From positions 1 through 64,000 of the forward strand of contig JAGVBZ010000011.1 in NCBI GenBank assembly GCA_020059465.1: a stretch of 64,000 nucleotides of DNA. Direction: 5' to 3'. Of this stretch, positions 20,201 through 31,417 are shown piece after piece. The position numbers were made by a program, and so were the translations under genes. Every line of letters starts with the position of its first letter. The stretch's first letter is position 1. The stretch comes from Brevinematales bacterium. Lineage in GTDB: Bacteria; Spirochaetota; Brevinematia; Brevinematales; GWF1-51-8. The notes under the pieces are model-generated. The model saw only the letters and a program-made list of their open reading frames with translations. It ran no database searches and was not told the DNA's origin.

Positions 20201-20229
20201 TTTACATAAAGCGCTATTTCATTTATAAT
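20201..20229 (+). promoter_or_regulatory. Sigma70-type promoter of the tmk operon
   Basis: TTTACA at 20201-20206, a 17-bp spacer and a perfect TATAAT at 20224-20229, 45 bp upstream of the tmk start codon. Confidence 0.65.
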
Positions 20230-20274: not shown

Positions 20275-20910
20275 ATGAACGGAATATTTATTACTTTCGA
20301 AGGTATCGAAGCGTGCGGAAAATCGACGCAGGCCAACTACCTTTATAATTATCTCGAATCCCGGCGGATCAACAGTATCCTGACCAAGGAACCCGGCGGC
20401 ACTATTCTGGGAGACCTCATTCGGAATATCGTTCTCCATGAGACTATTTTTCCGGTCGCCGAACTCCTCCTGTTTCTTGCCGACCGGAACCAGCATATCA
20501 ACGAGACTATCAAGCCATACATGGAAAAAGGGTATGTCGTCCTCTGCGACCGTTTCTATCATTCCACCTACGCCTATCAGGCCAGCGGCCGGAAAATCGG
20601 CATCGACATTGTCCGGAAGTTTAACGAGCTGGTCATCGAGGGATGCAGGCCCGACCTGACGTTCCTGATCGACCTCCCTCCCGAGGTGGGTTTCGAACGG
20701 AAACGCAGCGCGAACCTTGTCCTCGACCGTATCGAGAAGCAGAACTACGACTTTCATTACGCTGTCCGGGACGCCTATCTCAGGCTTGCCGGAGAGGACG
20801 AGCGTATCCGTGTGCTCGACGGTATGCGCCCGAAGGAAGAACTGAAGAAGGATATTCTAAGTATCATTACAGAGACGTTCCCGAATATGAAAGAACGCAT
20901 CACATTATAA
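20275..20910 (+). CDS. tmk: Thymidylate kinase
   Basis: A 211-aa dTMP kinase (dTMP to dTDP). The P-loop reads FEGIEACGKSTQ, with Glu-Ala-Cys where EGxDGxGK is more usual. EPGGT follows, then the DRF motif with STYAYQASGR, and a LID-like region ERKRSANLVLDRIE. The length is typical. It leads an operon: the 544-aa gene at 20932 begins 21 bp after its stop and the candidate E2-like gene overlaps that. tmk is a housekeeping gene, so the association could simply be shared transcription. Confidence 0.95.
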   Translation: MNGIFITFEGIEACGKSTQANYLYNYLESRRINSILTKEPGGTILGDLIRNIVLHETIFPVAELLLFLADRNQHINETIKPYMEKGYVVLCDRFYHSTYAYQASGRKIGIDIVRKFNELVIEGCRPDLTFLIDLPPEVGFERKRSANLVLDRIEKQNYDFHYAVRDAYLRLAGEDERIRVLDGMRPKEELKKDILSIITETFPNMKERITL

Positions 20911-20931: not shown

Positions 20932-22566
20932 GTGGAAGCCCCGGATTCCTGCGTCTTCACCATCCTTTCGTTTTTTCTCCCCCAGTTCCGTAAATACCGT
21001 TTCAGGTCGCTCGAACCGGCCGCATCGTTCGATTTTACTCCGCTCAGCGAAGCGAATATCGAAAGTGTCGTATGGACACGCAGTGAATCCGATTCGCTTG
21101 TGAAGAGTTTTGTCTTCATCTGCGCTCCTTTGGCGAAATGGGGCACGGACACTGTCGCGGGGGATCAGGACATGCTCGTGCTCGCGGAGGAACGTTACCA
21201 CGCGTTCCTGCCGAATACGGGCGGTGCGTTCGTCCGGCATGAGAACGCGGGCGTGCGGTATCTTACACGTCCGGGAGAGGAATGGCGTACCGGGAAGCTC
21301 ATGCTGACTATCGAGGAGCCGTCCGGCGGGCGTCCGGTATATATCCTCCTGCCGTGGCCGACCCTCCGCGGCCTCCTCACCCTTTGCGGTTTCGGGTATA
21401 TCGCCGAGACGGAGGAACGTTTTGTAACCGGCGAATCGAATTATAACGATCAGCTCCGAAAAATCGAATCGGTTGAGAACAGTATCCTATTCGGGCGCGG
21501 GGACCTTTTCTACAGTGTGCCGAATCTGTTTATCCGGGAAGAACTCAGCGATAAAGAGGGAATAGATAAACTTTCGCGTTTCCTGTCGCGGATGCTCCAG
21601 TCGGGGACGATCGAACTCCCGCACCTTGCGACGCTTCTCGATATCCGTGAGGAATACCGGACTATCCGTGAGATGGTGTCTGTGAAAAATGCGGCGCTCA
21701 TCGACCAGTACCGTACATCGATAAATATCGGCCTCGCCGGGGATTACGAACGTTTCCGCTGGCGGGATCAGGTGCTCTATCAGCTCCAGCACGCGGCCTC
21801 GCGTATGTCTGCGGACGACCCCAAGACGCTCGCCCCGCTTCTCCCGGAGAGCGCGCACCTCCGCGAACTAACCGCCCTTATCATGAATATCCGCCTCAGA
21901 AAGAAGGAGAGCATCCTTCCTATCGGTAAAATGATCGGGATGATTATCGAATCGCGCGCGGTCAACCCCCTTATCACCGGCGAAGGAAAGGAGCACCTGA
22001 TTGCGATCGCGGGGTTCGACGGCGACAGCATCCTCCGCGGATTGTACGGGCTGTTCAAGCCGGTATTTCAGGAGGAGATGCGGAACGCGATCGGGGAGTA
22101 CAAGGCGAAGGTGCATTCCCTCAAGCGCGATGAACGGGAACGCCTGCGGGTCTCGCATTATCTCGCGCTTTACGGCTATCTCGAACGGGAGATCATTAAG
22201 CGGGCGGACGCGCGGAAGGATGTGCTCGATATGAAGGGGATGGCGGAACTTTTCGCGGGTATGCCGTCGGGGGAGGTATGCCTATTGTATCACCTTTTCG
22301 GTTTCGAGAGGTTCGTCAATTTCTTCGATATATTCCGTTATCACCCCATGTCCCCGCTGAACGAAAACGAGGCGCGGGAGTTATTCCATAATGCCGCGGG
22401 GAAGCTGCCGTTTACGGAGTTTTCTATCGCGGAAGATATTTACAACGAGAACATCAACCGTTCGCGGCTTCTCAGCCTCGGGTTTATCGAGAAAGTGTAT
22501 AAAAAGCTCCGTGAGGAGTTTCTGGTATACCGCGGGATGGGATACTTCGGGGAGGCCGCGAAATGA
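20932..22566 (+). CDS. Unknown 544-aa protein, possible FliM/FliG-like relative
   Basis: No firm family match. Residues about 120-155 hold a strand pair ending RPVYILLPWPTLRGLL, which is similar in position and pattern to IYFYMIIPYQFLNFL in the 539-aa protein at 24915. Both recall the CIPYxxLEPI end of FliM. Residues about 355-420 (LIAIAGFDGDSILRGL, then a Lys/Arg-rich helix and a Tyr-rich helix) align by eye with the FliG-like repeat of the same 539-aa protein. The rest is mostly helical, with no membrane segment. The GTG at 20932 follows GGAGGG; no ATG in frame fits. It overlaps the downstream gene by 4 bp (ATGA). It may be a second switch-like subunit of the Ub-like system; homology is unproven. 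Confidence 0.6.
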   Translation: MEAPDSCVFTILSFFLPQFRKYRFRSLEPAASFDFTPLSEANIESVVWTRSESDSLVKSFVFICAPLAKWGTDTVAGDQDMLVLAEERYHAFLPNTGGAFVRHENAGVRYLTRPGEEWRTGKLMLTIEEPSGGRPVYILLPWPTLRGLLTLCGFGYIAETEERFVTGESNYNDQLRKIESVENSILFGRGDLFYSVPNLFIREELSDKEGIDKLSRFLSRMLQSGTIELPHLATLLDIREEYRTIREMVSVKNAALIDQYRTSINIGLAGDYERFRWRDQVLYQLQHAASRMSADDPKTLAPLLPESAHLRELTALIMNIRLRKKESILPIGKMIGMIIESRAVNPLITGEGKEHLIAIAGFDGDSILRGLYGLFKPVFQEEMRNAIGEYKAKVHSLKRDERERLRVSHYLALYGYLEREIIKRADARKDVLDMKGMAELFAGMPSGEVCLLYHLFGFERFVNFFDIFRYHPMSPLNENEARELFHNAAGKLPFTEFSIAEDIYNENINRSRLLSLGFIEKVYKKLREEFLVYRGMGYFGEAAK

Positions 22567-23174
22567 TCCGGCAGTCGTTTTACAGGTGGGCGTTACGCGA
22601 GCTGAAAGAGGAGTATGGGGCGAATGTTTTGGAAATGCCCGATCAGTCGGCGGTACTGATAAAAAACTTTCAAGTCCCCGGCGGGTATTCCTGCGCGAAA
22701 ACCTACCTGTTCTTCGAGATCCCGCCGGGATTCGGATTCGGGATGAACATCATGAATACATGGGTATTGCTCAAGCACACCGACGGGAAACACCATCTGA
22801 TACCCGACGTCTCCCGGATGGAAATGATACACGGGTATCTGGATAAACTCTCCGTAAAAATGCCGAAGGATTACGAGAAGGAATGGGGCTGGTTCTGGGT
22901 ATGCTTCCATGCCGCCGAGGGGGGCGCTCCGAAGGCAATCGGCGACAGGGACGGCGAATACGACTCGCTATTCGGGAATTACATCGGATTCCGGGAGCAT
23001 ATCCGCCAGGTATTTGCGGCGCTCTGCCAGATTGCAAAGGGCGGCACGGAGATATTAGGCCAGCTCGACAGGATGTACCGCGACCGCGAGGGGATTATCG
23101 AACGGCAGAAGCAGGATATGGAGGCGTTCCGGTTCTCTCATAACTGGCGGAATATGAAGTGGGTATGGGACTAA
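22563..23174 (+). CDS. Unknown 203-aa protein, candidate E2-like (RWD) fold
   Basis: The order of elements fits an E2/RWD core. An N-terminal amphipathic helix (SFYRWALRELKEEYG) leads into a strand meander (AVLIKNFQVPGGYSCAKTY and LFFEIPPGFGFGMN). A central tryptophan-rich block, EWGWFWVCFH, contains Cys114 and His116, and a long C-terminal helix starts at FREHIRQVFAAL. Prokaryotic E2-like families in Ub-like operons show a comparable Gly/Pro flap and a W..H block. Cys114 would be the candidate thiol. It is translationally coupled to the 544-aa gene (ATGA overlap) and separated from the Ubl/E1 operon by one lipoprotein gene. The assignment is a hypothesis; the gene itself is clear. Confidence 0.55.
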   Translation: MIRQSFYRWALRELKEEYGANVLEMPDQSAVLIKNFQVPGGYSCAKTYLFFEIPPGFGFGMNIMNTWVLLKHTDGKHHLIPDVSRMEMIHGYLDKLSVKMPKDYEKEWGWFWVCFHAAEGGAPKAIGDRDGEYDSLFGNYIGFREHIRQVFAALCQIAKGGTEILGQLDRMYRDREGIIERQKQDMEAFRFSHNWRNMKWVWD

Positions 23175-23235
23175 CTGCAGCGGCCGCATTTTATCATGAA
23201 AAAATTTAAACTATAAAATATATTATAAATATATA

Positions 23236-23263
23236 TTGACTTTTTAATAACATAAGGTACAAT
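23236..23263 (+). promoter_or_regulatory. Promoter of the repeat lipoprotein gene
   Basis: TTGACT at 23236-23241, a 16-bp spacer and TACAAT at 23258-23263, inside a sharply AT-rich gap (23175-23307), 44 bp before the ATG at 23308. Confidence 0.6.
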
Positions 23264-23307
23264 ATATTTAACGAAGAGAGTGGGGAAAAACATCTTCGGA
23301 GCTGAGT

Positions 23308-24801
23308 ATGAATCTCTTCAAGTTATTTTTCATTGCAATATTTTCCCTGACCCTTTTCGCATGCGGCAGTCTTACCGATACTTCCGGCCCGGCATCCGGA
23401 AGTTCATTGACAAACTTCACTTATCTGACACAGGAAACCTTGCTTCTTTCGGCGACCAATTCTATTACGAATAATTATACCAATGTCGCCAGTACATGTA
23501 CGAATATAACCCGTTATGACTGTATCACGAATTTCACGATAGCTTCGGCTTTCTGGAAAGCGACGACCAACTCGGCTATAGTGACGAACGTCCTTTTACT
23601 ACCCGCCCGTAAAATAAAAGCGATATTTAGTATTCCCGAAGGCGGCTCCGGGTATCAGTATTCTTTATATTCCCCTATTGTCTATAATTCCAAACTCTAT
23701 TTCGAAGGGAATACCGGAGGATTAGCAAAGATTTTTGAGTATGACGGTATCAGTATAAAAAACGTATCCGAAGGGTCTTCCGGATATCAGGGCCAATTTT
23801 CCCGGCCGATCGTCTATAATACAAAGCTCTATTTTTCCGGATGGTATGGCAGCGGATATAAAATATTCGAGTATTACGGTATCATAAATACTGTTTCCGC
23901 GGGCGCCTCCGATTATCAGAAAGATTTTTATTCTCCGGTGATTTATAATTCCGCACTTGTTTTTTCGGGAGACAACGGGAGCGCCAATAAACTATACGAG
24001 TATGACGGCGCGAGTATAAAAAACGTGTCCGCGGGTACTTCCGATTACCTTTACGGGTTTAACGAGGCGATTGTCTATAACTCCAAGCTATACTTTTGCG
24101 GGTATGACGGAAGCGTATCGAAAATATATGAATATGACGGCGTAAGTATAAAAAATGTTCCCGCGGGTTCATCCGGTTATCAGTCTGAATTTGGCAATCC
24201 GATTATTCTGAATTCCAAATTGTATTTTTTTGGATCCAACGGGGGTCAGATTAAAGTATATGAATTCGCAGGCACGGGCCTGAAAAACGTTCCCTCTCCA
24301 TATTCCGACTATCAGAGCGGATTTTTCAAGCCGGTTGTATATGATTCTAAAATTATCTTTTTAGGAAACAACGGAAGTGAAGAGAAAATATACTTGTTTA
24401 ATGGATTGAGTATATATAATATCGCTATTTCCTCCGCCAACTATCAGGAGGGATTTTATAATCCGGTTGTCTATAACTCGAAGTTATACTTTCAGGGTAA
24501 AAAAGGCGGTTTGTCAAAGGTTTTTATGTATGACGGAATAAGTATCAAGGATGTGCCCGGTCCTGCTTCCGATTATCAGTGCGGATACAGCAATGCGATT
24601 GTTTTCGATTCCAAATTATATTTTCAGGGCTATAACGGAAACAGGCAAATAATTTACGAATATGACGGTACGGCGATAAAGAATGTCGCATTAGGATACT
24701 GTAATTATTACAGTGAATTTCGGAAACCGGCAGTAATGAATTCTGAACTGGTATTTGAAGGATTCGACGGGATTTATTATATAATCTATACACTGAAATA
24801 A
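23308..24801 (+). CDS. Lipoprotein with nine ~44-residue propeller-like repeats
   Basis: A 497-aa lipoprotein. The signal peptide MNLFKLFFIAIFSLTLFAC gives lipid-carrying Cys19. After a Ser/Thr/Asn-rich linker, about residues 108-495 form nine repeats of roughly 44 aa. Each follows the pattern SDYQ..F..PIVYNSKLYF.G..G...KIYEYDG.SIKNV. The alternating strands and the GxxG turn suggest one propeller blade per repeat, but no named family is recognised. It has its own promoter and terminator and sits between the two gene groups of the Ub-like region. The repeats are near-identical in places, so copy number may vary between strains. Surface or periplasmic binding is inferred. Confidence 0.75.
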   Translation: MNLFKLFFIAIFSLTLFACGSLTDTSGPASGSSLTNFTYLTQETLLLSATNSITNNYTNVASTCTNITRYDCITNFTIASAFWKATTNSAIVTNVLLLPARKIKAIFSIPEGGSGYQYSLYSPIVYNSKLYFEGNTGGLAKIFEYDGISIKNVSEGSSGYQGQFSRPIVYNTKLYFSGWYGSGYKIFEYYGIINTVSAGASDYQKDFYSPVIYNSALVFSGDNGSANKLYEYDGASIKNVSAGTSDYLYGFNEAIVYNSKLYFCGYDGSVSKIYEYDGVSIKNVPAGSSGYQSEFGNPIILNSKLYFFGSNGGQIKVYEFAGTGLKNVPSPYSDYQSGFFKPVVYDSKIIFLGNNGSEEKIYLFNGLSIYNIAISSANYQEGFYNPVVYNSKLYFQGKKGGLSKVFMYDGISIKDVPGPASDYQCGYSNAIVFDSKLYFQGYNGNRQIIYEYDGTAIKNVALGYCNYYSEFRKPAVMNSELVFEGFDGIYYIIYTLK

Positions 24802-24816
24802 CCGTCAGGAAATACC

Positions 24817-24846
24817 AAGGACCGCCGTGGGCGGCCCTTTTTTTTA
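24817..24846 (+). terminator. Rho-independent terminator
   Basis: AGGACCGCC and GGCGGCCCT pair with one mismatch around a 3-base loop, followed by a run of nine or more T residues. It lies 16 bp after the repeat-lipoprotein stop and separates it from the Ub-like operon. Confidence 0.8.
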
Positions 24847-24914
24847 TTCAGTATATTCCCGAAAGAGATTGAAAATTCCCTTCAAGCTGTCTATAATATT
24901 CCGGGAGAAATCTT

Positions 24915-26534
24915 ATGCCTGAAAATATCACCCCGGATTATATGACATACCGGCAGTCGGACATGATAATCAGCGAACTGTTCATTCCGTACCGTGATAC
25001 GGGCGAGGCCGAAACACCGTCCGGGGAGAATCGCGACGTATTCATACAGGCGAACTCGGTCAGTATAGGGGAGTTCGCATACGGCCGCGCAGTCTATTCC
25101 GGCCACCGCCTGAATTATACGTCGGGCGATAAAAATACGTTCCCGGTCGTGCTTCTGAATAATCCTTCCGACGACAGTTATTTCCCGTTCGAGTATGTGC
25201 TGGAACGGCTTAACGGAGGTCTCGACAATCTCGAGGCGCTGACTTTTATCCGTTTCAAGATCTTCCCGAACAAGGAGGCGTCCCGCCCGGTCGATTTTAC
25301 GAATGTCGCGGAGCAGACGGTGAAGAACACGGTGGTGATCGAGTATATCGCGCATATGACCGACCGGAATATCTACTTCTATATGATTATCCCCTATCAG
25401 TTCCTGAATTTTCTCGTGAAGCGCTCGTCGGAAAATGTCCAGCTGACCGACCTGAGCGTCGCGAACCTGTTCAGGATACTCAGGGAGTGGGCTTTTTTCA
25501 TAGTAAGCGGGATGGACATCTTCCCGTGGAGGGCGGATAATTTCCTGCAGAAGCTGGAAAACGCGGAGGCGCAGAAGCTGTTCAGCCATCTCCTCGGCAG
25601 GCATTACCTGAACTACGAACAGGTCGCGTCGCTCGTCGTGCATTATCCCGATATCGAGAACAAGGTGCTGGAGAACGTGTCGAAGTCGCACCGGAAAGGG
25701 ATTATGGACGAAATGGATTATTTTAGGAAGATCGACGATCCCGACTGGTTCAGGAACGTGATCTACTCAGCAAAGACAGCGATGGGGCACACCATCTTCT
25801 TCGACGGCCTGCGACTGGAATCGCTCCGGAAGTACGAGGAGTTCCGGGACGCGGTCGAGACGATTCAGGATATCGAACTCCTGATGCGGAAGCCTGCCGA
25901 CAAATGGATACTCGAAGCGGGCGATACCGAGATAGAATTCCTTGTACACCGGATGGGGATTACGCGGATCGCCAAATGTTTTCTGATCGCGGACTTTGAC
26001 GAATCGGCGGAGAGACGAATACTGTCGCGGATTTCCAAGCGCGGACAGGCCGACTATAAAAAGGAAAAACAATATTTTAAGGACAATACCGTCTCGGCGT
26101 ACGCGGTGAATATCGCGCGGGTGGAACTGGTCAAACTTCTGCGCGACCGTCTCGCGGATAACTGTTTCCTGCAGGTCAGGAACCGCAAGGAGCCGCCGTG
26201 GGATGTATGGCTCACCGGATTGAACGGGCGTTTCTCGATCTTCAAGGTGTTCGCGGCGGGCGGATTCCCGTTGTTCGCGAAGGCGTTTACAGGGATAGAC
26301 GACCTGGAACGGTTCGCCCCGTTCTTCAAGGCGATCCCGCTTCCGGCGGCGGACATCATCGTGAAAATCGCCGGGTCTGAGTTGACGCAGGACAATCCCT
26401 ATAATACGGACACGATCGACAAAGCCCGTGAGGATATCGTAAGGATCATCATCGAACTCTATTTTTCAAACAGGATAGATTTAAGCCCCGAACTGAGGAA
26501 CGTTCTGGAGGAGGTACGCGCATGTTTACGTTAA
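24915..26534 (+). CDS. 539-aa protein with FliG-like repeats, first gene of a Ub-like operon
   Basis: No confident family match over the full length. Two internal segments resemble each other: about residues 240-290 (IENKVLENVSKSHRKGIMDE) and 350-412 (AERRILSRISKRGQADYKKE, then ARVELVKLLRDRL). Both recall the FliG helical repeat whose core reads EKIFKNMSKRAA...LKEEIEF. Residues about 138-170 (KNTVVIEYIAHMTDRNIYF, then YMIIPYQFLNF) resemble the end of a FliM middle domain. It may therefore be a flagellar-switch-derived scaffold. It is cytoplasmic, with no signal peptide. The stop overlaps the ubiquitin-like gene by 13 bp, so the two are translationally coupled. Possible roles are conjugation target, E3-like adaptor or sensor; none is proven. 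Confidence 0.6.
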   Translation: MPENITPDYMTYRQSDMIISELFIPYRDTGEAETPSGENRDVFIQANSVSIGEFAYGRAVYSGHRLNYTSGDKNTFPVVLLNNPSDDSYFPFEYVLERLNGGLDNLEALTFIRFKIFPNKEASRPVDFTNVAEQTVKNTVVIEYIAHMTDRNIYFYMIIPYQFLNFLVKRSSENVQLTDLSVANLFRILREWAFFIVSGMDIFPWRADNFLQKLENAEAQKLFSHLLGRHYLNYEQVASLVVHYPDIENKVLENVSKSHRKGIMDEMDYFRKIDDPDWFRNVIYSAKTAMGHTIFFDGLRLESLRKYEEFRDAVETIQDIELLMRKPADKWILEAGDTEIEFLVHRMGITRIAKCFLIADFDESAERRILSRISKRGQADYKKEKQYFKDNTVSAYAVNIARVELVKLLRDRLADNCFLQVRNRKEPPWDVWLTGLNGRFSIFKVFAAGGFPLFAKAFTGIDDLERFAPFFKAIPLPAADIIVKIAGSELTQDNPYNTDTIDKAREDIVRIIIELYFSNRIDLSPELRNVLEEVRACLR

Positions 26535-26737
26535 GCTATAAAAACCGGAAGGAAGAATTCGATAAAATCGAGGTGAACAAGATCAGGGAGAAATTCGATA
26601 TTCCCGCGCGGAAAAACCTTTACCGTGTCAACGAGAAGGGTGAGCTTGAAAAACTGGACGACCAGACCGCGCAGACCAAGCTGAAGAATAACGACGAACT
26701 TGACGCCCTTTCAGACTTCTCTCTCGGGACGCTATGA
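26522..26737 (+). CDS. Small ubiquitin-like (beta-grasp) protein
   Basis: A 71-aa protein. The pattern fits a beta-grasp Ubl: a strand (FTLSYKNRKEEF), a helix (VNKIREKFDI), a strand (KNLYRVNEKGELEKL) and a closing D-x-T / L.NNDELDALSDFSLG segment, as in ubiquitin-like families. It ends SLGTL, with a single Gly three residues from the C-terminus and no GlyGly, so trimming after Gly69 by the adjacent JAMM peptidase is possible. It sits between the FliG-like gene (13-bp overlap) and the JAMM gene (4-bp ATGA overlap), with a strong GGAGGAGGT ribosome site. Context with JAMM and E1 makes it the likely conjugated modifier. Confidence 0.65.
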   Translation: MFTLSYKNRKEEFDKIEVNKIREKFDIPARKNLYRVNEKGELEKLDDQTAQTKLKNNDELDALSDFSLGTL

Positions 26738-27186
26738 GGCTTCTGCTCTCCGGCGCGGAGATGGAACAAATCCGTGAGTACCTTTTCCGCGATACGGGCG
26801 AACGGATGATTATCGCGCTATGCCGGAAGGCCGGATGGAGCACCTATCGCGCGGAGGAATGGTTCTACCCGTCGGAGCAGAACTACGCCCGCAGGAACGA
26901 GGCGGCGGTCACACTGCGCGCGGAGGCGGTATACCCGCTGATAAAAAAATTGCGCTCCGATCCGGGGCTTTCCTTTCTGCAGATACATTCCCATCCGCGC
27001 GGAGTCCCCGCCCGTTTTTCATCTGTCGATAATATCAATAACGGATTCAATACAATGGACGTCCGGGAATGGAATCCCCGCGCGGGGTTCTTCAGGATGG
27101 TGATGAGCGGGGATGAGACAGCCGCGGAATATTTCGATTACCGTGCGGGCAGGTTCAGGCTGTTGACAATAAAAATCACAGGATAG
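26734..27186 (+). CDS. JAMM/JAB-domain metallopeptidase (Ubl isopeptidase)
   Basis: A 150-aa single-domain JAB protein. The JAMM signature is complete: Glu23 in TGERMIIAL, His85 and His87 in QIHSHPRG, Ser96 and Asp99 in RFSSVDN. Such enzymes use zinc to cleave the bond after a ubiquitin-like C-terminus, either maturing the modifier or removing it from targets. The gene overlaps the Ubl stop by 4 bp and lies 5 bp before the E1-like gene. In known bacterial Ub-like operons (CBASS Cap3, Bil system BilD) a JAB gene occupies the same role. No other domain is fused. Confidence 0.85.
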   Translation: MRLLLSGAEMEQIREYLFRDTGERMIIALCRKAGWSTYRAEEWFYPSEQNYARRNEAAVTLRAEAVYPLIKKLRSDPGLSFLQIHSHPRGVPARFSSVDNINNGFNTMDVREWNPRAGFFRMVMSGDETAAEYFDYRAGRFRLLTIKITG

Positions 27187-27191
27187 GCAGG

Positions 27192-28382
27192 ATGGCGAAG
27201 ATATTTTTAAGCCCCTCGCAGTTCCGCGCGATCCGGGAGATGTCCGGCGGGGTGATGGAGTTCCGCAGGTTCGGGGACACATATGTCCCGGATACCCCGT
27301 TTGCACGGGAGGCGGGAAGCGGGTATCCATCCGTACGCCTCGGACTGCGTTTCGCCGATCCCGTGGAATACAGCCTCGGCGCGGCGGACAGCGAAACGGA
27401 CGCCCCGGTGTGGAATGTCCTGTTGAGCGATAGTCTGCGCGCGCTGATGGATAAGGGCGATACACGGGAACTGTTTCCCGCGATTGCGGAGGCGTCGAGG
27501 TTTTCCGGGGTACGGATCGACTCGCTCGCGATGGCGGACGGGGATTCATATTATTCCGCGCCGCTCGGACGGACGATCGCCGGGTACGGGGACGCGCACC
27601 ACCGCACCCTGCTCTGGCTCGGTTCCCGGAATTTCGACACGATACGGAGCGCGAGGCTCGGACTGATCGGCGCGGGCGGGCTGGGTTTTCCGTACGCGCT
27701 GTCGGCGGTCAGGCATGGGTTCACGAAGTTTACGATAGCCGACCCGGATATTATCGAGGAATCGAACCGCAACCGCCTGTTCGGGACATTGCCCGGCGAC
27801 AACGGGAAGCCGAAGGCAAAAGTGCTGAAACGGGAACTGGAGTCGTTCTGGACGGGGATCGATGTGCGCGTACATAACGTACCGTTTTCCCCCGAAGTGT
27901 ATGAAAGTTTCGTGGAATGTGATATCCTGATCGTCGGGGCGGATAACGATTACGCGCGGGTATCGGCGCAGCTTTTCGCGCTCCTTGCGCGGAAGCCGTT
28001 GTTCGATATGGGGAGCGGTATTTTTCTCGGCGGTACTCCCGGCGGGGAGCCTGTGCCGGATGAAATGGGAGGGCAGGTGCGCGCGTATCTCCCGGACGGG
28101 CCGTGCCTCGGATGTATGGGGCTCGACCCTGCGCGTGCCGAGGACGATGAAGCCCGAGGGCGCGGTATCGAACGCGGGTATATTATCGGGACGGAGGTTA
28201 CGCCGCCCGCAGTGGTGACTCTCAATTCTATCATAGCGTCGGTTTGTCTTTCGATGACGGTCGATTATCTGACGCGCGCCGGGGGATTGACGGTAAAACA
28301 CCTCTGCTTCGACCAGATCGGATATAGGCTTCGTACGATCGCGGAGGAACGGAAAAAATCATGCCCTATCTGTTCGATATAG
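27192..28382 (+). CDS. E1/ThiF-like Ubl-activating enzyme
   Basis: A 396-aa protein. A 150-residue N-terminal region of unknown fold is followed by a ThiF/E1 Rossmann domain: nucleotide loop GLIGAGGLG (about 157-165), IADPDIIEESNRNRLFG, KPKAKVLKREL and DILIVGADN. Two CxxC pairs (CLGC at 305-308, CPIC at 391-394) would hold the structural zinc of this family. It should adenylate the C-terminus of the 71-aa Ubl. No separate catalytic-Cys domain is obvious, so it may work like MoeB/ThiF or pass the Ubl to the candidate E2 at 22563. Last gene of the four-gene operon. Confidence 0.85.
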   Translation: MAKIFLSPSQFRAIREMSGGVMEFRRFGDTYVPDTPFAREAGSGYPSVRLGLRFADPVEYSLGAADSETDAPVWNVLLSDSLRALMDKGDTRELFPAIAEASRFSGVRIDSLAMADGDSYYSAPLGRTIAGYGDAHHRTLLWLGSRNFDTIRSARLGLIGAGGLGFPYALSAVRHGFTKFTIADPDIIEESNRNRLFGTLPGDNGKPKAKVLKRELESFWTGIDVRVHNVPFSPEVYESFVECDILIVGADNDYARVSAQLFALLARKPLFDMGSGIFLGGTPGGEPVPDEMGGQVRAYLPDGPCLGCMGLDPARAEDDEARGRGIERGYIIGTEVTPPAVVTLNSIIASVCLSMTVDYLTRAGGLTVKHLCFDQIGYRLRTIAEERKKSCPICSI

Positions 28383-30193: not shown

Positions 30194-31417
30194 ATGAATC
30201 CGATAACGGAAAAACCCGCAGGTAGGCCGTCGATAGCGGTTATCCCGAAGGGCTCTCTCACGGGCAATCCCGATATTCTTATGCATACTGGGAGCGAATT
30301 TGCGCAGTTTCCCAGCAGTCTTGCCTCGCGCCGCGCGGTAATGGGCATTTATGAGAAAATGATGCTCGATGACCGGATCAGCCAGGTGATGGGTGTGATA
30401 AACTCGTCGGTACGGACACTCGGATGGTATGTCGAGAGCGACGATATCGATGCGGCGGATTTTGTACGCGACAACCTTACATCGCTCGAACTCGGACGGT
30501 TTATCGGCAATCTCCTTTCCGCGCGCGTCTACGGGTTTGCGGTGTTCGAGGAGGTGTGGAAGAACGAGAACGGACACTACCGGATCATGGAGGAACGGCT
30601 TCTTCCTGCGCGTAAGGTCGAGTTTGTCGCGGACGAATTCGCACAGCTTGTCTCGGTAAGGTATGACGGTATCGAGTATCCTGTGGAGTGGTTCCACGTT
30701 TTTACTTATCCCGATGTGCGCCCGGAGTCGTACCATTATGGAACATCCGAACTGAAGAAAATCTACCGCGAATGGTACACTAAGGATGCGCTGAAACGAT
30801 ATCGCAATATCGGGCTTGAGAACTATGCGTTCCCGATAGTGGTCGTGACCTTCGATGAAAACCGTTACCGCCCCGGCACTCCCGAATGGGATGCGCTTCA
30901 GGCGATGGTCGAGGGGATCAAGGACGACGCCCGGCTGACATTACCCGGAGCGCTCAGCCCTATCGACGGGTCGCTGATGCCGGGAGTGGAGGTGAAGTTC
31001 CTCGAGCCGCGTTACGCCGACGGCGGGTTCGAAGCGCTCGAGAAGGCGATATGGTCCGAGAATAAGGCGATCGCCCGGAACCTCGGGTTGCCCGACGACC
31101 TCGGGTTCACCGATACCGCGGCGGGGAGTTACGCCAAGGCGCGTCAGGAATTCGACATGTTCTGGAAAACGGTGACCGATATTGCTGAGACGGTCGAGGC
31201 GAGTGTCCGGAAGGTAGTCGAAAGGCTCGCGCGGCATAACTTCCCGGACTCGAAAGTACGCTTCGGGTTCGAGGTGTCGCGCGATAAGGGGATCACCGCG
31301 CAGAAAGCGGAAGTGCTGAAGACTCTCGCAGATGCGGGGGTGACGCTCGACAAGGGCTTTACTGCGCGGTATCTGAATATCGGCGATACGGATATCTCGG
31401 CTATGCCTCCCGCATAG
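30194..31417 (+). CDS. Mu gp29-like (DUF935) phage portal protein, probably C-terminally cut
   Basis: A 407-aa portal-family protein of the DUF935/Mu gp29 type, which forms the DNA entry ring of the phage head. Visible parts are IYEKMMLDDRISQVMGVINS, LSARVYGFAVFEEVWK, PVEWFHVFTYPDV, YGTSELKKIYREWYTKDALK and NLGLPDDLGFTDTAAGSYAKA. The family is usually longer, and here the reading frame ends inside a 47-bp tandem repeat that supplies the TAG stop, so the original C-terminus is probably lost. An AAGGAGG site precedes the ATG. It lies apart from the terminase (36550) and no head genes follow, so it is part of a decayed or rearranged prophage. Confidence 0.85.
   Translation: MNPITEKPAGRPSIAVIPKGSLTGNPDILMHTGSEFAQFPSSLASRRAVMGIYEKMMLDDRISQVMGVINSSVRTLGWYVESDDIDAADFVRDNLTSLELGRFIGNLLSARVYGFAVFEEVWKNENGHYRIMEERLLPARKVEFVADEFAQLVSVRYDGIEYPVEWFHVFTYPDVRPESYHYGTSELKKIYREWYTKDALKRYRNIGLENYAFPIVVVTFDENRYRPGTPEWDALQAMVEGIKDDARLTLPGALSPIDGSLMPGVEVKFLEPRYADGGFEALEKAIWSENKAIARNLGLPDDLGFTDTAAGSYAKARQEFDMFWKTVTDIAETVEASVRKVVERLARHNFPDSKVRFGFEVSRDKGITAQKAEVLKTLADAGVTLDKGFTARYLNIGDTDISAMPPA

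Follow-up and report, generated by a model that had tools for sequence, protein, structure and literature searches.

The described systems closest to this locus are two operon types of Iyer et al. (PMC1779556): type 6d, comprising a ubiquitin-like protein (Ubl), a JAB, an E1, an E2 with a Cys and a downstream His, and an alpha-helical protein; and type 6e, comprising a polyUbl, an E2-like protein without the Cys, and a JAB-E1. Bub operons are numerous and represent putative immune pathways, although protection against phage has not been shown (PMC13373217). Ubiquitin-like operons of bacteria are in many cases sporadic, and occur on plasmids or beside defence genes. Here we analyzed a locus in a stretch of 64,000 nucleotides from a Brevinematales bacterium (hereafter, the window). 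In its genus, the locus occupies a fixed chromosomal place beside the thymidylate kinase gene tmk. Its gene content and profile relationships show the parts list of type 6d together with sequence relations to type 6e and Bub. The two genes at the centre of this report, p544 and p203, probably encode core subunits of an uncharacterised Ubl conjugation pathway related to the Bub/type 6e operons, whose catalysis is inferred.

Organisation and distribution of the locus

The stop codon of p544 and the start codon of p203 overlap in an ATGA, making p203 a translationally coupled partner gene (Table 1). Both reading frames are open and conserved across genomes (75-80% identity in two sister genomes and 48% in a third, for both proteins; 27% for p203 in a distant genome), and therefore both are real genes. 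The p539-Ubl-JAB-E1 cluster lies downstream, at 24915-28382. The gene directly 5' of p544, tmk, likely belongs to the same transcription unit while being outside the Ubl system, and the promoter-like site preceding it could serve tmk-p544-p203. Taking together the two promoter-like sites and the terminator-like hairpin, all of them consensus matches only, the two halves of the locus are probably separate transcription units in the window genome. We infer that the split layout of the window results from insertions and a separate promoter, rather than from the presence of two systems. Further downstream, the window carries a phage portal protein gene (PHROG 113; 30194-31417), and genomes G002 and G003 have a similar gene in the corresponding position; this likely represents a prophage remnant or a gene-transfer-like cluster.

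Table 1. Features of the locus, in window coordinates.
Feature	Position	Strand	Evidence and remarks
Promoter-like site TTTACA-17-TATAAT, 5' of tmk	20201..20229	+	11/12 match; consensus match only
tmk, thymidylate kinase	20275..20910	+	Pfam Thymidylate_kin 2.5e-49; neighbour kept in G001-G003
p544, 544 aa	20932..22566	+	GTG start after GGAGGG; ORF, homologues, profile comparison
p544 residues 136-149, VYILLPWPTLRGLL	21337..21378	+	End of N-terminal part common to p539 (IYFYMIIPYQFLNFL)
p203, 203 aa, E2/UBC-like	22563..23174	+	ORF, homologues, profile comparison with E2/UBC
p203 residues 12-57, significant similarity to Bub-type E2/UBC	22596..22733	+	Profile comparison
p203 C114-F115-H116, candidate active site	22902..22910	+	Invariant in 5/5 homologues
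Putative lipoprotein, 497 aa	23308..24801	+	Sole gene separating p203 from p539; found only in window genome
Terminator-like hairpin and T-run, 3' of lipoprotein gene	24822..24841	+	Consensus match only
Promoter-like site TTGAAA-17-TATAAT, 5' of p539	24869..24897	+	11/12 match; consensus match only
p539, FliG-related, three FliG_C-like modules	24915..26534	+	Pfam FliG_C, family profiles
p539 first FliG_C-like module, residues 211-274	25545..25736	+	Family-versus-FliG profile
p539 second FliG_C-like module, residues 307-412	25833..26150	+	Family-versus-FliG profile, reverse search
p539 third FliG_C-like module, residues 441-521	26235..26477	+	Family-versus-FliG profile; weakest of three
Ubl candidate, 71 aa	26522..26737	+	Conserved C-terminus F-[ST]-L-G69; fold not shown
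JAB-type metallopeptidase	26734..27186	+	HSHP...S..D motif kept; HMM E 5e-15; Prob 98.8, score 102 against JAB domains from Bub-type E1 operons
E1-like ThiF-family adenylyltransferase	27192..28382	+	CxxC...CxxC; Pfam ThiF 3.5e-27

The four genomes of the genus all share the gene order tmk-p544-p203-[insert]-p539-Ubl-JAB. The insert varies: the window carries the lipoprotein gene, G003 carries DUF433, G002 a DUF433-like gene, and G001 DUF433 plus DUF5615. This place appears as an insertion hot spot (23175-24914 in the window, and the same place in loci L006, L007 and L008), and the DUF433 or DUF433 plus DUF5615 genes of the relatives are toxin-antitoxin-like. JAB is followed by E1 in two of the four, G000 and G003. 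In G002, JAB has other genes after it, and E1 was located on a different contig, where the genes downstream of it are the same. The G001 contig breaks off, and we found no close E1 in that 73%-complete genome. The 2 kb from JAB to the contig end in G002 (L006, minus strand) contain repetitive, surface-protein-like genes with GGWYTA repeats, which probably explain why the contig breaks off ahead of E1.

Outside the genus, a phylum-wide search with p203 and p544 profiles identified a single genome, G088, from another family. Its locus is compact, with p544, p203, Ubl and E1 directly adjacent: p203 has 187 aa and overlaps p544 by an ATGA, Ubl has 69 aa and ends in FTLG, and E1 has 421 aa and overlaps Ubl by an ATGA. 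Since p544 is broken across two contigs in this assembly, its pieces were joined via a 49-aa overlap. Neither JAB nor p539 was found at the G088 locus, indicating that both are dispensable and that the six genes are not the minimal unit. The distribution of p544, p203 and Ubl in the phylum is identical: all three are present in the same five of approximately 393 genomes, and a Ubl profile search of the phylum returned only these five above noise. Because four of the five belong to one genus, the independent occurrences amount to two. From the common distribution and the compact G088 locus, we conclude that p544 and p203 belong to the Ubl system. No relatives of p203 or Ubl were found in viral contigs, nor of p203 in phages, nor of p203 or p544 in plasmids.

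The first-pass annotation had described two ATGA-coupled genes one gene upstream of the Ubl operon, and had read them as the second half of a Ubl system. The description was confirmed by the ORFs, and the reading was supported by gene order in the genus, by adjacency in G088 and by the common distribution. It had also named a wide occurrence of the pair without the Ubl operon as refuting; this was not seen in the approximately 393 phylum genomes. The co-occurrence of all six genes, which it had named as a check, held for p544, p203 and Ubl, and not for p539 and JAB.

Sequence relationships of the encoded proteins

We reached E2/UBC relatives through the E1: a tblastn search led to plasmid operons annotated as multiubiquitin - E2/UBC - ThiF - DUF6527, which we take to be Bub operons, based on the BubCD match of the E1 (below). 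An alignment of the five p203 proteins was then compared with one of 14 E2/UBC proteins (13 plasmid-encoded, plus the phylum protein L067) using hhalign, resulting in a clear match (Prob 91.2, P 1e-6, score 45.4), with maximum scores of 20.4 for 100 column shuffles and 17 for reversed or unrelated alignments. Consistently, when an HMM built only from E2s was run over 1815 ORFs, all five p203 proteins ranked right behind the true E2s (E 1.4e-4 to 0.024; next ORF 0.25). Thus, p203 is related by sequence profile to the E2/UBC proteins of Bub/6e operons. The significant part of the match lies within residues 5-58, and Cys114 is outside it. Along the full alignment path, in its weaker part, C114-F-H116 is in register with the S-x-H of Bub-type E2s and the C-I-H of haloarchaeal E2s; in most Bub-type E2s of the alignment, Ser takes the place of Cys114. 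Both Cys114 (in WFWVCFH) and His116 are invariant in all five p203 proteins known, down to 27% identity, as are W110, W112, P54 and G56.

None of the Pfam, NCBIfam, PADLOC or PHROG models match p203 or p544, and Pfam at E<=10 gave no match for any of the five p203 proteins; searches with PF14461 and PF14462 miss p203. A Prok-E2_E search of the phylum yielded one true Bub-type system, in G244, and none at p203. This system (L067, G244:C146) is a Bub-type E2-E1 operon in another spirochaete genome, with a Prok-E2_E score of 125 bits. PDB sequence searches with p203, Ubl, p539 and JAB returned only chance matches. AlphaFold models of p203 (two sequences; pLDDT 38) and of Ubl (pLDDT 54) were too low in confidence for a meaningful fold search, so neither fold has been seen. 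In the p203 model, a helix is followed by five strands, a second helix, a strand that carries the Cys, and further helices; this order would fit an E2, without being evidence for it. The first-pass annotation had proposed an E2 core with Cys114 as its cysteine; the profile relation to E2/UBC held, and the fold is not shown by structure.

The candidate Ubl scored within the null against multiubiquitin Ubls, and had no PDB or Ubl-profile match. Its Gly69 is conserved and is the C-terminal residue in two of the five Ubls: it is followed by TL in the window and by AE in G001 and G002, and the G003 and G088 proteins end with it. The three genomes with residues past G69 all have JAB; of the two without, G003 has JAB and G088 does not. 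The best PDB match of the E1 profile was Citrobacter BubCD (4e-21 over 210 residues). A census of the E1 cysteines found conservation of a strand cysteine (C243) and of the two CxxC pairs, with no conserved crossover cysteine. Separately, the N-terminal region of E1 was considered as a degenerate JAB, and the comparison gave no support.

We found that p544 and p539 form one family, as shown by profile comparison. With four sequences per side, the alignment was weak; it became strong once five p544 sequences were set against nine of the p539 family (Prob 91.9, score 60; 60 column-shuffled controls reached at most 22.6), and with eleven family members it gave Prob 95.8 and score 74 over 352 columns. 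The alignments that include stand-alone p539 relatives from spirochaetes span 340-352 columns. Two local patterns had been pointed out earlier as common to both proteins. The motif pair, VYILLPWPTLRGLL in p544 and IYFYMIIPYQFLNFL in p539, was confirmed and falls within one collinear alignment; the other pattern, a FliG-like helix group, was confirmed for p539, and p544 had no direct FliG match.

For p539, the relation to FliG is supported by a direct match to Pfam FliG_C (27.4 bits, cut-off 23.3), with two stand-alone relatives also above the cut-off; by a comparison of p539 and stand-alone relatives with true FliGs (score 62, null maximum 20); and by a reverse search with the p539-family profile, which retrieved FliG itself from most of 56 genomes. 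Compared directly with FliG, p544 scored 15, at null level, and thus its FliG link runs through the p539 family. On this sequence basis, we regard p544 as a largely helical member of the p539/FliG-like family, a divergent paralogue dedicated to Ubl loci. Beyond the genus, fourteen or more genomes have stand-alone p539-family members of 450-500 aa. This stand-alone family with FliG_C-like modules is widespread in Spirochaetota and has no family name beyond FliG_C, and p539 is its only member found in the genus of the window. Five stand-alone loci were examined (L029:7503-8945, L030:6994-8412, L031:4783-6120, L032:7-1515 and L033:7733-9172), all unlinked to Ubl genes. In the literature searched, we found no link of FliG-like proteins to such a ubiquitin-like operon.

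A putative conjugation pathway and its alternatives

In the pathway that we propose, JAB would trim the two extra residues of Ubl, where present, to expose the ...F-[ST]-L-G69 end, and E1 would adenylate Gly69. Since the crossover loop of E1 lacks a conserved catalytic cysteine, we suggest that Ubl may be handed straight from E1 to Cys114 of p203. As part of this model, p203 probably acts as an E2 through Cys114, its catalysis being inferred and the UBC fold not shown by structure. The role of p544 is also inferred: it would bind p203 and either present the substrate, as an adaptor or E3-like protein, or be the substrate itself. JAB may also remove the Ubl tag from its target. In the genus, p539, which is encoded with Ubl, would probably be another binding partner or target. 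An adaptor or substrate is usually missing, and the large FliG-related subunits offer a concrete candidate for one. At four genes, the minimal locus of G088 is of a size that can be rebuilt in E. coli, which makes conjugation and the role of p544 testable.

The alternative that survives best lies within the conjugation model: p544 could be a dedicated substrate carrying Ubl, and not an adaptor. The p544 gene is in every case coupled to that of the E2, so that the two proteins would be made in similar amounts, and CBASS offers a precedent, with the transfer enzyme Cap2 and the conjugated CD-NTase in one small operon (PMC12355090); however, no sequence feature distinguishes a substrate from an adaptor. 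Less plausibly, p203 could have an E2 fold without activity and merely scaffold E1 or Ubl, a role already suggested for the 6e E2/RWD proteins that lack the cysteine, with conjugation, if any, proceeding otherwise. Most aligned Bub-type E2s have Ser at the C114 position, and the 6e versions were called inactive by Iyer et al. (PMC1779556). Against this, Cys114 and His116 are invariant despite the divergence of p203, and haloarchaeal E2s from similar operons have a Cys-x-His. Finally, a sulfur-carrier pathway, in which Ubl would be adenylated and converted to a thiocarboxylate, with Cys114 handling sulfur instead of an E2 thioester, would fit an E1 that lacks a crossover cysteine, like MoeB-type enzymes, and the common E1-JAB-ThiS/MoaD operons without conjugation (PMC1779556), but is made unlikely by the relation of p203 to E2/UBC proteins, by BubCD, and not ThiF or MoeB, being the closest solved relative of E1, and by the absence of any sulfur-metabolism gene within the locus.

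We thus favour conjugation, with p544 as adaptor or substrate. A bolder reading, which we put forward only as a possibility, is that the pathway has a FliG-derived specificity subunit or substrate, the tagging either acting on the motor switch or a FliG-like scaffold in spirochaetes, or borrowing its assembly surface.

Comparison with described operons and with FliG

Compared with type 6d (PMC1779556), the locus is alike in its list of parts: a single Ubl with a C-terminal Gly, a JAB, an E1, an E2 in which a His lies downstream of a Cys, and a large protein made up of alpha-helices. It differs in that Prok-E2_B (PF14461) has no match in the window's own genome, and in that the His of p203 is two residues past the Cys, whereas that of 6d is further downstream, in a helix. 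The haloarchaeal Ubl-E2-E1 plasmid operons (Natrinema, Salinigranum and Natribaculum) are alike in the Cys-Ile-His of their E2 at the C114-F-H116 position. Unlike in our locus, their JAB domain is carried by the E1 gene, and no FliG-like gene was noted nearby. The Natribaculum operon contains a second E2/UBC-like ORF (L065:559-993, E 3e-16 to the E2 HMM).

With FliG, the resemblance consists in the FliG_C-like (PF01706) modules of p539 and its stand-alone relatives. In contrast to FliG, the p539 family has three modules and another N-terminal domain, in 450-540 aa, and p544 is too divergent for a direct match.

In sequence, the locus is related to Bub/type 6e: among solved structures, E1 is nearest to BubCD, JAB and E2 are profile-related, and Ubl, E2 and E1 are neighbours, as in G088. 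Among the differences, JAB either has a gene of its own or is missing, the Ubl is a single protein of 69-71 aa not recognisably multiubiquitin, the FliG-like p544 and p539 are added, and no DUF6527 or multiubiquitin match was found among the locus genes tested. The E2 of the locus is of the Cys type within a Bub-like branch where most aligned E2s have Ser. Altogether, the locus most likely represents a variant of Bub-like conjugation, itself inferred here, distinguished by its FliG-related subunits and its Cys-type E2.
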